DNA of 64,000 nt from contig JAFQBX010000041.1 in the NCBI GenBank assembly GCA_017399535.1, forward strand, positions 1-64,000, given 5' to 3'. Position 1 is the first letter of the stretch. Each line of letters begins with the position of its first letter. Source of the DNA: Clostridia bacterium. Its GTDB lineage: Bacteria > Bacillota > Clostridia > Oscillospirales > Acutalibacteraceae. Positions 3,705 to 52,776 of the stretch are shown here, piece after piece. The position numbers and the translations under genes were made by a program. The notes below the pieces were generated by a model. It was not told the origin of the DNA and searched no databases. It saw only the letters and a program-made list of their open reading frames with translations.

Positions 3705-5741
3705 TTAATTCATTTCGACCTGCGCCATCTTTTGCTTTAATTTATCGGCAACTTTCTTAATCTTTGCGTTCTTCGGTTCGGAAAGGGTCGGGTCGCTGTC
3801 CAAAATTGATTGTGCGCAACTTTGCGTTTCGTGGAGAATGTCAATGTCAGCGAACAGATTGGTGATTTTGAGCGCAGGTAGTCCGTGCTGTCTGTTGCCA
3901 AAAAAGTCACCCGGCCCTCTTAGTTTGAGGTCCTCCTCACTGATTACAAAGCCGTCGTTGGTGCTTTTTATAACGTTTAGTCGTGCTTTTGCTATGTCTG
4001 TTTCGGCGTCGGAAACGAGTATGCAGGTCGATTTATGCTCACCTCTGCCAACTCGACCACGAAGCTGATGAAGCTGTGAAAGCCCAAATAAATCAGCATT
4101 TTCAATCATCATAATAACCGAATTCGGTACGTCAACACCTACTTCGATTACCGTCGTCGAAACAAGTAATTGGATTTGTCCCGATGCGAATTTTCTCATC
4201 ACGTCCTCTTTTTCGGATGATTTCATTTTTCCGTGAAGGAGCCCTACCGAATAGCCCTTAAACTGATTTTCGGACAGCTCGTTTTTATAGTTTTCGGCGG
4301 CAATTTTGTTACTGTTATCGTCGTCGTTTTCGTCAGAAACGAGGGGACAGACGATATAGCCCTGCCTACCTTCGTCGAGGTGCTTTTTAATGTATCCGAA
4401 TGCTCTTTCGCGTATTTTACTGTTAATTACAAAGGTTTCAATTGGCTGACGTCCCGGCGGAAGCTCGTCGAGTATGGAGATATCGAGGTCGCCGTAAATC
4501 ATTAGCGCAAGTGTACGCGGAATTGGCGTTGCCGACATGACCATAACGTGCGGATTGAGTCCCTTTGATGAAAGCATGGCGCGTTGATTTACGCCGAATC
4601 GGTGCTGTTCGTCGGTGATAACGAGACCGAGTCGGTTGAATTCAACGTCATTCTGAATTATCGCGTGGGTACCTACAATGAGATCAATGTCGCCTTCCTT
4701 TAATCGAGAAAGGATTTCTGCGCGCTTTTTCGCCGTCGTTGAGCCGGTCAAAAGGGCAACCTGCATTCCCGTTTTGGAAAACATTTTTACAAATGATGCA
4801 AAGTGCTGTTCGGCGAGAATTTCGGTGGGAGTCATCATGGTCGCCTGCAATCCGTTCTTTATCGCGGTATAGCAAACGGCGGCGGCAACTGCCGTTTTAC
4901 CCGAGCCGACGTCGCCCTGAATGAGTCGGTTCATCATAATTCCGTGGTTCATATCGTTTACGCAGTCGATAATCGCGTTTTTCTGCGCCTTCGTGAGCGA
5001 AAAGGGAAGTAACTGCTCGAATTCAGCCGTGTAATCGGTTTCTATATTATACGAGTTTGCGAGTTTGCTGCTCTGTTTAATCATTCTCATTCCGAGCTGT
5101 AAGCCAAAAAGCTCGTCAAAAACCAACCTGCGCCTTGCCTTATTTAGAGCGGCAAAGCTGTCGGGAAAATGAATATTTCTAATTGCATAGTCATATCCGC
5201 AAAGCTTGTATTTGTCGAGGATTTCCTGCGGCAAATATTCGTCAAACCTTGCACTTGAAATGGCAGTTTTGACCGTTTTTTCGATAGCGTAGGTGTTGAG
5301 CGAATCGGTTTGGCGGTAAATCGGTCTTATTTTTGCGCCGTCGGGATTAAGAATTTCCGGTGACGACATTTCACGCCAAATTAGACTGCCACCAATTTTA
5401 CCGTAAAATAAATATGTTTCGCCGCATTTAACCTTATTCGCCTGATATTTGTTGTTAAAAATAGTGACGTTCAGCCGCATTCCGTTATCCTCGGCCTTAA
5501 ACTTGTATAATGTCAAACCTTTGCGAATTCGGTTTTCGGCAGGGGAAGTAATTACGGTGGCTTTCACACAGGCGACTTCGCCGATTTCGGTGTCTTTTAT
5601 CGGCTTTATATTTGAATAGTCGATATAATTTCGGGGGTAAAAATGAAAAAGGGCGTCGACGGTATCCACGCCCAACCTTTTAAAAAGTTGGGCGCGTTTA
5701 TCGCCAACACCTTTAATTGTAGATATTTTGTCGCCGGTCAT
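3705..5741 (-). CDS. recG: ATP-dependent DNA helicase RecG
   Basis: RecG remodels stalled replication forks and branched DNA by ATP-driven fork regression. The 678 residues match the family length. The N-terminus has a helix-hairpin-helix-like start (ISTIKGVGDKRAQLFKRLGV) and the wedge/OB domain. The helicase core carries Walker A GDVGSGKT (near residue 277), the DEQH box in DEQHRFG (near 376) and motif VI QLRGRVGRG (near 560). The TRG region follows. GGAGGG lies about 8 bases before the ATG. It lies between fakA (28-base gap) and the GH3 gene; the yloU-yloV-recG order is typical of Firmicutes. Confidence 0.97.
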   Translation of the reverse strand: MTGDKISTIKGVGDKRAQLFKRLGVDTVDALFHFYPRNYIDYSNIKPIKDTEIGEVACVKATVITSPAENRIRKGLTLYKFKAEDNGMRLNVTIFNNKYQANKVKCGETYLFYGKIGGSLIWREMSSPEILNPDGAKIRPIYRQTDSLNTYAIEKTVKTAISSARFDEYLPQEILDKYKLCGYDYAIRNIHFPDSFAALNKARRRLVFDELFGLQLGMRMIKQSSKLANSYNIETDYTAEFEQLLPFSLTKAQKNAIIDCVNDMNHGIMMNRLIQGDVGSGKTAVAAAVCYTAIKNGLQATMMTPTEILAEQHFASFVKMFSKTGMQVALLTGSTTAKKRAEILSRLKEGDIDLIVGTHAIIQNDVEFNRLGLVITDEQHRFGVNQRAMLSSKGLNPHVMVMSATPIPRTLALMIYGDLDISILDELPPGRQPIETFVINSKIRERAFGYIKKHLDEGRQGYIVCPLVSDENDDDNSNKIAAENYKNELSENQFKGYSVGLLHGKMKSSEKEDVMRKFASGQIQLLVSTTVIEVGVDVPNSVIMMIENADLFGLSQLHQLRGRVGRGEHKSTCILVSDAETDIAKARLNVIKSTNDGFVISEEDLKLRGPGDFFGNRQHGLPALKITNLFADIDILHETQSCAQSILDSDPTLSEPKNAKIKKVADKLKQKMAQVEMN

Positions 5742-27205: not shown

Positions 27206-27246
27206 GCAGAAAACAGCACAAGTTTATTAGCAAAAAATTTAATATG

Positions 27247-27392
27247 TCTTCGGGGCGAGGTGAAATTCCTCACCGGCGGTAAGGTTTTTACATTGTTTAC
27301 GATGGATAAAGCCGTAGCCCGCGAACTGTGATGCGTCACAGCCGATTTGGTGAAAATCCAAAGCCGACGGTATAGTCCGGATGAAAGAAGAT
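27247..27392 (+). ncRNA. FMN riboswitch (RFN element)
   Basis: The conserved core is unmistakable: TCTTCGGGGCGAGGTGAAAT at the 5' side, CCTCACCGGCGGTAA, GCCGTAGCCCGCGA, GATTTGGTGAAAATCC, GCCGACGGTATAGTC, and a closing GAAAGAAGA strand. It binds flavin mononucleotide and, with the terminator at 27450, controls the downstream riboflavin transporter. Confidence 0.96.
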
Positions 27393-27449
27393 ACATAGTT
27401 TTTTTTAGGATAAGTCACATGAATTGATTGTGTGATTATTATAAAAAAA

Positions 27450-49738: not shown

Positions 49739-49896
49739 TTATCTTTTCTACCTATAAAATAATCGGCTGATACCTTATAAAAATCACACAGCTTAATTAA
49801 ATCTTCAATTTTCAATTCAGCGCGACCGATTTCGATATGATTATAACCTTGTTGTGATTTACTTATAATTTCAGCAAATAATTTTTGGGCATAATT
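49735..49896 (-). pseudogene. Truncated XRE-type HTH regulator remnant
   Basis: The minus strand encodes the C-terminal half of a Cro/CI-type helix-turn-helix: KLFAEIISKSQQGYNHIEIG, then ELKIEDLIKLCDFYKVSADY and the typical end FIGRKDK and TAG. The frame is closed by a TGA just upstream, there is no start codon, and the first helices are missing. It therefore looks like a decayed regulator, left of hairpin array A. Confidence 0.65.
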
Positions 49897-49942: not shown

Positions 49943-50128
49943 AACGCGAAGCGTTGTATATCATCAATTCCGTAAGGAATTGCATATCATCAAAACGAAG
50001 TTTTGTATATCATCATTGCGAAAGTTTTTTTGATACACACCTAAAGGTGTGATGAGATACGAGGGCGGTCTTGCCGCCCTTGATGATATACGCCTTACGG
50101 CGATGATATACCATTGCTTTAGCAATGG
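49943..50128. repeat. Hairpin array A (variable hairpins with TATATCATC / GATGATATA words)
   Basis: Seven or eight short palindromes, each different, alternate with a constant word. Left half: AACGC-gaa-GCGTT, AATTCC-gtaa-GGAATT and AAAAC-gaa-GTTTT, each followed by (G)TATATCATC (49956, 49982, 50005). Right half: CACACC-taaa-GGTGTG, AGGGCGG-tcttg-CCGCCCT and CGCC-ttac-GGCG, each followed by GATGATATAC or GATGAGATAC (50051, 50082, 50102), then CCATTGC-ttta-GCAATGG. The words are inverted between halves, so the array can fold into one long stem with hairpin branches. It contains no ORF. Confidence 0.85.
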
Positions 50129-50130
50129 AT

Positions 50131-50165
50131 AAAAAAATAGACTTGCAAAAGCAAGTCTATTTTTT
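50131..50165. terminator. Terminator-like hairpin closing array A
   Basis: ATAGACTTGC pairs with GCAAGTCTAT around AAAA, flanked by AAAAAA and TTTTTT. It sits between array A and the shared 19-mer tail. Confidence 0.8.
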
Positions 50166-50184
50166 GGCTGTTACGAACTATTTA
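50166..50184 (+). repeat. Shared 19-mer tail, copy 1
   Basis: GGCTGTTACGAACTATTTA follows the terminator hairpin of array A and is identical to the copy at 51378. The sequence after it stays similar (ATGC, then CTTATATT and GTCTTTT). Confidence 0.9.
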
Positions 50185-50236
50185 GATGCTTCTTATATTA
50201 AGCGTCTTTTAAACGCTCGATTTTGTTGGAACATCT

Positions 50237-51075: not shown

Positions 51076-51169
51076 AACATCACCGCCTTTATTTTATTAT
51101 AGCATAAACGAAAGAATTAAACAAGATATGATAGTTTCGGTCGTTCGAATCCATACTGACGGAGATTTG

Positions 51170-51341
51170 AGTGATATTCCGACTTCGTCGGAGTGATATT
51201 TTCGCTATGCGAAAGTGATATTGAAACCTACGGTTTCAGTGATATTATATTCGCCTCCAAAACTGCCCGTAGGGCAATATCACTCGGCGTAAGCCGAATA
51301 TCACTGCGAAGCAATATCACTCGCCGAAGGCGAATATAACT
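51170..51341. repeat. Hairpin array B (variable hairpins with AGTGATATT / AATATCACT words)
   Basis: Four AGTGATATT words (51170, 51192, 51214, 51238) alternate with CCGAC-ttc-GTCGG, TTCGC-tat-GCGAA and GAAACC-tac-GGTTTC. After a centre at 51247-51264, the complementary word AATATCACT appears at 51276, 51297 and 51313, with AATATAACT at 51333. These alternate with GCCC-gta-GGGC, CGGC-gtaa-GCCG, GC-gaa-GC and CGCC-gaa-GGCG. Every constant word on the left has a complement on the right, giving a foldable ladder of 9-bp rungs with paired hairpin branches. There is no ORF. Confidence 0.88.
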
Positions 51342-51375
51342 GAAAAAGACGATCGCTTTCGCAATCGTCTTTTTC
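51342..51375. terminator. Terminator-like hairpin closing array B
   Basis: AAAAAGACGAT pairs with ATCGTCTTTTT around CGCTTTCGCA (itself partly paired). It occupies the same place as the hairpin at 50131 in array A but has a different stem sequence. Confidence 0.8.
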
Positions 51376-51377
51376 TT

Positions 51378-51396
51378 GGCTGTTACGAACTATTTA
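51378..51396 (+). repeat. Shared 19-mer tail, copy 2
   Basis: GGCTGTTACGAACTATTTA, identical to 50166-50184 and in the same orientation, again directly after a terminator-like hairpin. Confidence 0.9.
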
Positions 51397-51437
51397 TATG
51401 CCACTTATATTTCGTCTTTTTAAAAAATGTTATTCTA

Positions 51438-52736
51438 TTAGTGGTTGTCTATATTATAATCATTGAAAAAATTATCAATACTTTCAACCGTATCTTCGCG
51501 TCTTGATTTTTCTGCTGCAAATCCAATAAGATGGTTTTTAATCGAAATGTTGATATCTGCCGCACAGTAACCGTTATAATTACCGCCAAGATAATCATAA
51601 AGCTCGAATATCAAACCTGCATCGCCGCCGCCATGGCCGCCTAAAATGCTTTCTTCTGTCACGTTAAACGGGATTCCTGTTTGCTTCCTATCCTCAAAAG
51701 TATAAACGTTTATTTTATCGCTTTCCATATGGGCAAAGAGCTCGCCTTTTGTGCCGAAAATACGAATATATCTTCCGCCCTCATTGAATGCATTCATGCT
51801 AAGTGTTGCATTAGCACCGCTTTTAAACTGCATATTGACTGTTTGATGATCAACAACATCGTTATTGGCATGATAAACGCACAAACCGAAATCTGTTGTC
51901 TTAAGCGCTGTCATAACTTCTTCATCGGTTGGGATTTCATTCTTAGCAATACCACGTGTGCACGCAGGTCTAAACCATGAGTTATCCTTGTTTTCATAAT
52001 AAAGCTTTTTACTGTTGTAAGGACAAGTATCTTCAATAGGACATCCACCGTCAATACACCTTTTAGGAGCTCCTTCAGGGGCATTTTCAGGTGTAAAATA
52101 TGTAAGTTTGCCGAAGGACTGAATTTTTTCGCAAGGCTCATCTAAAATCCACTGCAGAATGTCTAAATCGTGGCAGCACTTTGCCAAAAGCATAGGTGAA
52201 GTTTCTGATTCACTGTGCCAATTTCCGCGCACATAACTGTGGCTTTGGTGTACGTTTCCTACGGCCTCAACGTGAACAATAGACATAATTTTGCCTATTG
52301 TACCATTCATTACGATTTCCTTGACTTTTTTGAAAAAAGGAGAATATCTTAACACATGACAAACGAGAACCTTTACGCCCTTTTTATCAGCGGCAAGTGC
52401 TAAATTAGCACATTCCTCTGCGGTTGGGGCAACAGGTTTTTCAAGAAGAATATCGTAACCTAATTCAATCGCTTTCATGGCGGGTTCGTAGTGCATATTG
52501 TCCATGGTAGCAATAATGGCTAAGTCAGCCATTTTCGGCTTTGAAAGAATTTCTTTCCAAGTATTAAAGCACATATCATCTGATACATTGTGTTTGTTTT
52601 TAATGCTTTCTCTCCGGCTTTTAATAGGCTCTGCTACACCGACTACCTTAAATTTGTCCTTTAAATCAAGCATTATATTAGTGTATGTAGTGCCTCTTTG
52701 TCCTGCGCCGATTAAAATTGCAGAATATTGTTTCAT
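51438..52736 (-). CDS. Gfo/Idh/MocA family NAD(P)-dependent oxidoreductase
   Basis: The N-terminal Rossmann domain opens SAILIGAGQRGTTYTNIMLD; the EKPVAPT motif (Lys near residue 95) is the usual catalytic/cofactor element. GNWHSESETSPMLLAKCCHD lies in the C-terminal domain. An internal Cys-rich insert (CIDGGCPIEDTCPYNSKK and later ACT) is seen in a subset of these enzymes. I start at ATG 52736, 8 bases after GAGGAG, giving about 432 residues. The divergent AraC regulator is probably its controller. The sugar substrate is unknown. Confidence 0.88.
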   Translation of the reverse strand: MKQYSAILIGAGQRGTTYTNIMLDLKDKFKVVGVAEPIKSRRESIKNKHNVSDDMCFNTWKEILSKPKMADLAIIATMDNMHYEPAMKAIELGYDILLEKPVAPTAEECANLALAADKKGVKVLVCHVLRYSPFFKKVKEIVMNGTIGKIMSIVHVEAVGNVHQSHSYVRGNWHSESETSPMLLAKCCHDLDILQWILDEPCEKIQSFGKLTYFTPENAPEGAPKRCIDGGCPIEDTCPYNSKKLYYENKDNSWFRPACTRGIAKNEIPTDEEVMTALKTTDFGLCVYHANNDVVDHQTVNMQFKSGANATLSMNAFNEGGRYIRIFGTKGELFAHMESDKINVYTFEDRKQTGIPFNVTEESILGGHGGGDAGLIFELYDYLGGNYNGYCAADINISIKNHLIGFAAEKSRREDTVESIDNFFNDYNIDNH

Positions 52737-52776
52737 AAAAATGCTCCTCACGCTTGAAATTTTGTTATACTTATGT

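Follow-up and report, generated by a model that had tools for sequence, protein, structure and literature searches.

The window, a stretch of 64,000 nucleotides of a Clostridia bacterium (contig JAFQBX010000041.1 of assembly GCA_017399535.1), carries a palindromic array of constant words and short hairpins (array B) between a gene at 51438-52751 and a minus-strand gene for a predicted membrane protein. The features of this neighbourhood are as follows.

51438-52751: upstream gene, Gfo/Idh-like as read from its sequence; GTTCGTAACAGCCA stands 3' of it on the minus strand, and the hairpin 51375-51342 comes next
51377-51423, minus: direct repeat, copy 1, ending ...GTTCGTAACAGCCA, an insertion site resembling a tRNA 3' end
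51342-51375, minus: near-perfect terminator-like hairpin of unit B, GAAAAAGACGATTGCGAAAGCGATCGTCTTTTTC, left end of the mobile unit
51170-51341: array B as a whole, four AGTGATATT words and, beyond a centre, four inverted words, the units being spaced by seven perfect hairpins
51276-51341, minus: right arm, AATATCACT at 51276, 51297 and 51313, and the variant AATATAACT at 51333
51170-51246, plus: left arm, AGTGATATT at 51170, 51192, 51214 and 51238, with three hairpins between
51306-51312, plus: GCGAAGC, seven-base ultrastable DNA mini-hairpin (from the sequence and PMC4686876)
51245-51256: first strand of P1, a covarying long-range stem, TTATATTCGCCT
51328-51339: second (partner) strand of P1, AGGCGAATATAA
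50434-51075, minus: predicted membrane protein of 213 aa, with promoter-like sequence adjoining the ladder
50165-50212, minus: direct repeat, copy 2, likewise ending in GTTCGTAACAGCCA; unit B has its right boundary here, and unit A starts
about 51376 down to 50165: unit B (hairpin, ladder B, promoter-like sequence, gene, short ORF, repeat copy)
50132-50165, minus: terminator-like hairpin of unit A, AAAAAATAGACTTGC-TTTT-GCAAGTCTATTTTTT
about 49943-50140: array A, words TATATCATC / GATGATATA

Array B was confirmed as real. The first-pass annotation had described four left words, four right words (one a variant) and hairpins between them. The right-arm hairpins are CGGC-GTAA-GCCG, GC-GAA-GC and CGCC-GAA-GGCG, and the others CCGAC-TTC-GTCGG, TTCGC-TAT-GCGAA, GAAACC-TAC-GGTTTC and GCCC-GTA-GGGC; the left-arm loops TTC, TAT and TAC of the plus strand read GAA, ATA and GTA on the other. 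The array folds far better than 200 dinucleotide shuffles on both strands, with z values of -6.9 and -9.0 as RNA and of -7.7 and -8.1 as DNA. In the window's genome the word-hairpin-word pattern occurs at 9+9 places and the reversed pattern at none. Furthermore, a search for ladders of this kind that was blind to the word found 43 in 331 kb of fetched loci and none in shuffled sequence, the shuffle being the valid control, as reversal preserves inverted words and is therefore uninformative.

The stretch 51170-51396 also contains the terminator-like hairpin at 51342-51375 and the start of the direct repeat at 51377-51423, neither of which is mentioned in the first-pass annotation. The direct repeat that bounds unit B is 46-59 bp long (85% for the 59-bp extent). 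In a sister genome (G001) the upstream gene is 98% identical and continues to AGCCA, after which unrelated DNA follows; unit B is thus bounded by direct repeats, and the break falls at a CCA-type junction as it does at tRNA genes, the window copy standing behind a CCA-like end and not behind a tRNA gene. The gene for the 213-aa membrane protein is the probable cargo of unit B. The right end of unit A was not found; a small HTH (Xre-like) reading frame at 49741-49860 on the minus strand adjoins array A and is perhaps its cargo. Elsewhere in the window an FMN riboswitch is located at 27242-27396 on the plus strand (111.9 bits).

Gut-1 and the spread of the ladders

The right arm lies within a match to Rfam RF01706, 'Gut-1 RNA', at 51272-51342 on the minus strand (65.7 bits, gathering score 50), the left arm gives a weak Gut-1 match at 51142-51226 on the plus strand (35.8 bits), as arms in inverted order should, and Gut-1 matches in other genomes often form neighbouring pairs on opposite strands. 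Gut-1 is therefore one arm of the array, and what is new is its place as one arm of a palindromic array of ~170 bp within a dispersed element. Among larger known RNAs sought around array B, Gut-1 alone was found. It was described in 2010 as a 77-nt ncRNA with human gut metagenomes as its only known source (Weinberg et al. 2010, PMC2864571), and this naming paper was its sole trace in the papers searched. The present finding resembles that description in that one arm is a full-score member and the carriers are gut bacteria; it differs in that the arm belongs to a larger palindromic dispersed DNA element with hairpins of DNA type, and in that Gut-1 occurs in herbivore-gut Clostridia/Oscillospiraceae MAGs, so that it is not restricted to human gut metagenomes.

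About 16 arrays are present in the window's genome (G000). Gut-1 matches were detected in 31 of 60 sampled relatives around the window's order, with a maximum of 48 per genome, and in only 3 of 299 genomes sampled from the phylum at large. When GTDB contigs were scanned, at least 115 stretches were obtained which, among the matches listed, come almost entirely from herbivore-gut Clostridia and Oscillospiraceae MAGs; the pattern used was of the AGTGATATT type, a single word type, so that this word is over-represented and the scan is not a census. A unit from the window's genome had no match in public phage and plasmid collections and only a few IMG/VR contigs carry the element, and a phage or plasmid origin was consequently rejected. 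One of these (L333) has, at the contig end, an integrase-like frame and then GGGGTTCGAATCCCCTATGCTCCACCA fused directly to a GAAAAG-hairpin and ladder, which seems to be a prophage end abutting a Gut-1 element.

Among 65 distinct ladders found by the word-blind search, the words GTGAAAT, GTGATAT, ATGATAT, GTGAAGT and AGTGATATT occur beside others, in agreement with the earlier proposal of a family with several word types; arrays A and B likewise have a common grammar and different words, the arms of A being in opposite order. Both word balance and stem complementarity, whose loss elsewhere was to count against the earlier reading, are preserved: word numbers are roughly balanced in other arrays, and 368 of 373 units are hairpins. 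A much longer array with duplicated word-hairpin units, suggestive of unit amplification, was seen around position 5026 of a contig from a rabbit-gut MAG (L127).

Loops, stems and covariation

Loop statistics were compiled in the W' orientation for 297 ladder hairpins of the set fetched with Gut-1 (separate from the GTDB scan). Of 126 triloops, 76 are GNA, with all four bases at N; of 141 tetraloops, 92 are GNNA (56 of them GNRA and 36 not); and the closing pair is C-G in 165 of 173. This loop rule is obeyed at a rate of 56.6% in ladders as against 9.2% in the background outside them; it is valid in both arms, each on its own strand, and still valid in array A despite the opposite order of its arms. 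Loops d(GNA) and d(GNNA) are the rule of extraordinarily stable DNA mini-hairpins of the type GCGAAGC, whose Tm is 78 C (PMC4686876). Among 1438 stem pairs 96.6% are Watson-Crick, with 11 G-T and 12 A-C pairs and thus no G-U excess, which argues against selection at the RNA level. The presence of DNA-type loops on each arm's own strand, together with the lack of wobble tolerance, points to a structure that acts at the level of single-stranded DNA.

Only one long-range stem covaries. This stem, P1, forms between the centre and the outermost word of the Gut-1 arm, and 67 of 69 pairs are Watson-Crick where 23.8 are expected (A-T 27, C-G 24, T-A 16). Conversely, no covariation was found between words, the highest correlation being 0.26 in 31 copies; left-arm words drift (G to T in 10-45%) and right-arm words do not follow with a match, so that word:word pairing is not under visible selection. 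The symmetric ladder of rungs envisaged in the first-pass annotation therefore stands in part: folding predictions give such a ladder for a single DNA strand, yet its rungs do not covary. The same annotation saw stacked four-way junctions and word-specific types, each with its own recognition protein. The variety of words under one grammar and the predicted ladder fold agree with such types; however, at least four words coexist in the window's genome, sister species have different words behind the same tmRNA, no linked gene is common to the arrays and none of the tested enzyme families follows them, which, with the absence of word:word covariation, makes this reading extremely doubtful.

The original proposal that Gut-1 is a trans-acting structured ncRNA (PMC2864571), of which the ladder would be a larger form, draws on its place among the ncRNAs of that survey. 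It draws further on the RF01706 match above the gathering score, a Gut-1 strand that folds strongly as RNA (z -9.0), the covariation of P1 and a fixed orientation downstream of tRNA promoters. Against it stand the stem pairs with no G-U excess, loops that follow the DNA rule with any base at N (many of them GNYA), two arms that obey this rule on opposite strands, and the position of the element behind terminators, from which transcription would require tRNA read-through or an own promoter. Moreover, the commonest small unit, GCGAAGC/GCTTCGC, has only 2 bp, and such a hairpin is stable as DNA and not as RNA. We regard the ncRNA proposal as unlikely, while the element may have an additional RNA role.

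Insertion sites

The 3' end of a tRNA or tmRNA gene faces 30 of the 65 ladders within 200 nt, mostly at 37-105 nt, commonly at 45-75 nt, and with many isoacceptors represented, and about half of the ladders have no adjacent tRNA; because copies are related by descent, these counts and those that follow are not independent and are inflated by shared ancestry. In all 30 tRNA/tmRNA-linked cases the CCA is encoded and, by comparison of tables, Gut-1 lies on the tRNA strand, and 29 of the 30 continue with a hairpin of 7 bp or more. The typical junction reads CCA|GAAAA-stem-loop-stem-TTTTC, with the ladder starting at once. One such hairpin, GAAAACGACAGATTCC..., stands behind tmRNA in two genomes and behind tRNA-Leu in a third, and another, GAAAAAGACGATTGC..., behind both tmRNA and a tRNA in genome G058, where it precedes ladders and differs by 1 nt from the window copy at 51342-51375. 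Since the same hairpin is found behind different RNA genes in different genomes, it is part of the element and not of the host gene.

Five complete units with both ends were recovered (268-292 bp); their tail, GTTCGAATTCATACG...GTAGCCCATAGNCA, mimics a tRNA 3' end (T-loop plus CCA) and is followed by another terminator. The tRNA-Gln unit of the window's genome and a tRNA-Pro unit of G059, which belongs to a different family, are 94% identical over about 273-300 bp, to both junctions. At an element-free site in G004 the CCA of tRNA-Gln runs straight into the sequence found beyond the unit in the window's genome, and a different repeat comes next. At tRNA sites the two junctions have only 2-5 bp in common, and the classical att pair, for which a long stretch of the tRNA 3' end would recur downstream as a direct repeat, was not found at true tRNA sites. 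Three loci show another dispersed repeat at tRNA ends, AAATCGACAAGTTTC...GAAACTTGTCGATT, with runs such as TTCACTATTCACTATTACTTATTACC after it; two of them lie behind tRNA-Gln and tRNA-Met (L268, L281), and the third is L297.

Additionally, copies occur in a second placement, inside the intrinsic-terminator loops of protein genes, with an extra first hairpin and a longer tail. Empty sites for one such copy (L060) are intact terminators in G003 and G001, GCCCTGA-CTTA-GTCAGGGC and GCCCTGA-TTTA-ATCAGGGC, respectively, and for another (L069) an intact terminator in G003. In 18% of copies, as against 0.9% in swapped controls, there is an outer stem that is exact over 12 bp or more, and homology between copies ends at the element edges. 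The terminator-loop form was also observed within a predicted viral contig (L296), where the split stem is AACGGTAGG...CCTACCGTT.

These observations lead us to consider it likely that array B forms the core of a mobile DNA element that is small, probably non-autonomous and has a ladder which works as DNA (the 'Gut-1 element'). Its smallest unit, of 268-292 bp, would consist of the terminator hairpin (GAAAA...TTTTC), the palindromic ladder and the GTTCGAATTCATACG...GTAGCCCATAGNCA tail, and would insert in one orientation only, right after the CCA of tRNA/tmRNA genes or a CCA-like end, GTTCGTAACAGCCA being an example. Insertion at this point would give the RNA gene the terminator of the element and leave the displaced DNA behind the imitation tRNA end, which could accept a further unit; larger units would hold a gene between ladder and tail, as unit B probably does with that for the 213-aa membrane protein. 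While a strand is transiently single, each arm would form, on the strand to which it belongs, consecutive C(GNA)G / C(GNNA)G mini-hairpins with the constant word as spacer. We infer that a recombinase or ssDNA transposase recognises the hairpin-plus-word (W') units in single-stranded DNA and the CCA end, and that it joins the element behind the CCA, where the element's own terminator would render the insertion harmless. Counting against this reading are the mere 2-5 bp in common between the junctions at tRNA sites, the ladders with no adjacent tRNA, the CCA-like end behind which the window copy lies, the different repeat in G004 and the failure to find a mover among the enzyme families searched.

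The ladders might instead be neutral or insulating palindromes, kept perfect via template switching and spread passively, or retained as insulation behind terminators. The stems do vary freely and yet stay perfect, as under quasi-palindrome correction, but such processes alone leave the d(GNA) loop rule, the exact CCA junction, the fixed orientation and the 94% identical units in different families unexplained, and we judge them very unlikely to account for the arrays. The earlier interpretation of the locus is partly supported overall: the finding is more interesting than that first reading in that an RNA-family name covers a dispersed DNA element which targets tRNA ends, and less so in having neither word-specific proteins nor covarying rungs.

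The Gut-1 element shares with tRNA-targeting integrative elements the insertion at tRNA/tmRNA 3' ends and an imitation tRNA end at the far side; it differs from them in using several tRNAs, in a smallest form of <300 bp, and in its position after the CCA with its own terminator and no restored tRNA segment. Group IIC introns target intrinsic terminators, and in this respect they are similar; here, in contrast, most carriers lack a reverse transcriptase and insertion is in the terminator loop or before the terminator. The terminal inverted repeats with target duplication of DDE-type MITEs were not observed on inspection. The junction at which a tRNA gene's CCA meets its terminator is a little-described insertion niche, and the finding recasts a catalogued RNA family as part of a dispersed DNA element.

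Candidate movers and cargo genes

By inspection, the unit ends GAAAA... and ...GTAGCCCATAGNCA are not terminal inverted repeats. The lack of such repeats and of a clear target duplication, the orientation (the same in 30 of 30) and the insertion 3' of a short tag (CCA|) recall IS200/IS605-type non-autonomous elements and REP/BIME, which are likewise dispersed extragenic hairpins with a short constant word and fixed orientation. Movement by a Y1 (HUH) transposase, as in IS200/IS605-like or REP/RAYT elements, would accord with these properties, with the subterminal hairpins, with the REP-like combination of word and hairpin, and with the one Y1 gene of the window's genome. However, Y1 (PF01797) is absent from the ladder-rich genomes G059, G039, G047, G007 and G055, and several ladder-free genomes have one. 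Y1 as a requirement for movement is thus largely refuted, and this explanation appears rather improbable. The elements also differ from REP/BIME and IS200/IS605 types in their words of 7-9 nt, free stems, two-arm palindromic array, tRNA CCA target and many carriers with no Y1 transposase.

None of the enzyme families searched follows the arrays. Y1/RAYT transposase was rejected as mover, its presence being uncorrelated with ladders, and so were reverse transcriptase (RVT_1; absent in G007, G020, G008, G059, G039, G047 and G055) and serine recombinase, both of which are missing from several ladder-rich genomes. G059 (86% complete) has 48 Gut-1 matches and none of these three enzymes. Tyrosine recombinases (PF00589) are present in every genome examined; the one found in G059 was rejected as well, as its subfamily is missing from most other ladder-rich genomes and its distribution does not track the arrays. 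The element may be moved by housekeeping Xer proteins, by enzymes of HUH or IS110 type, or by another enzyme.

The genes adjoining tRNA-linked ladders are varied single genes, which by sequence reading include a putative acetyltransferase, methyltransferase, hydrolase, four-helix-bundle protein and small membrane proteins. Behind tmRNA, the window's genome, G001 and G004 differ in their genes, and the ladders there have different words or are absent, which looks like cassette turnover. A common promoter/leader, TTAAACAAACTTGAATTTG-like, was noted before different genes, with or without a ladder, at three loci behind different RNA genes (L064, L272 and L276; tRNA-Ser, tmRNA and tRNA-Val, respectively).

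The units might accordingly be compared with integron cassettes. Here the unit would be a cassette (terminator, ladder, one promoter-driven gene, tRNA-like tail), the ladder a folded ssDNA recombination site akin to attC, and tRNA 3' ends the platforms. Sites whose sequence varies while the fold is conserved are common to both systems, as are single-gene cargo, in the form of diverse single genes behind ladders, and tandem units, seen in the window (B then A) and at other loci where tails are followed by further units; moreover, the same tmRNA or tRNA-Met is followed by different genes and words in sister species. Unlike integron cassettes, the smallest units are gene-less, the junction lies after the tRNA CCA and about 35 nt outside the ladder, no attC core (GTTRRRY/RYYYAAC) was noticed in junctions viewed by eye only, no integrase family or tyrosine recombinase subfamily is shared, and many of the genes may be pre-existing host genes. 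The comparison, which we think somewhat unlikely to hold, extends the preferred reading of a small mobile element, so that the probabilities of the two overlap.

Put tentatively, and as possible rather than probable, the Gut-1 element could represent a novel type of mobile DNA. In such an element, or system of gene cassettes, ultrastable ssDNA mini-hairpins in an inverted array would form the recognition site; insertion would take place after the CCA of very many tRNA/tmRNA genes, with replacement of the terminator, and the imitation tRNA end left by it would offer a further platform. On this view the Rfam family Gut-1 would be a site in DNA and not an RNA. Were the ladder a recombination site, d(GNA) mini-hairpins would have a natural use in it, and genes beside tRNA genes in abundant gut Clostridia could be turned over by this route.
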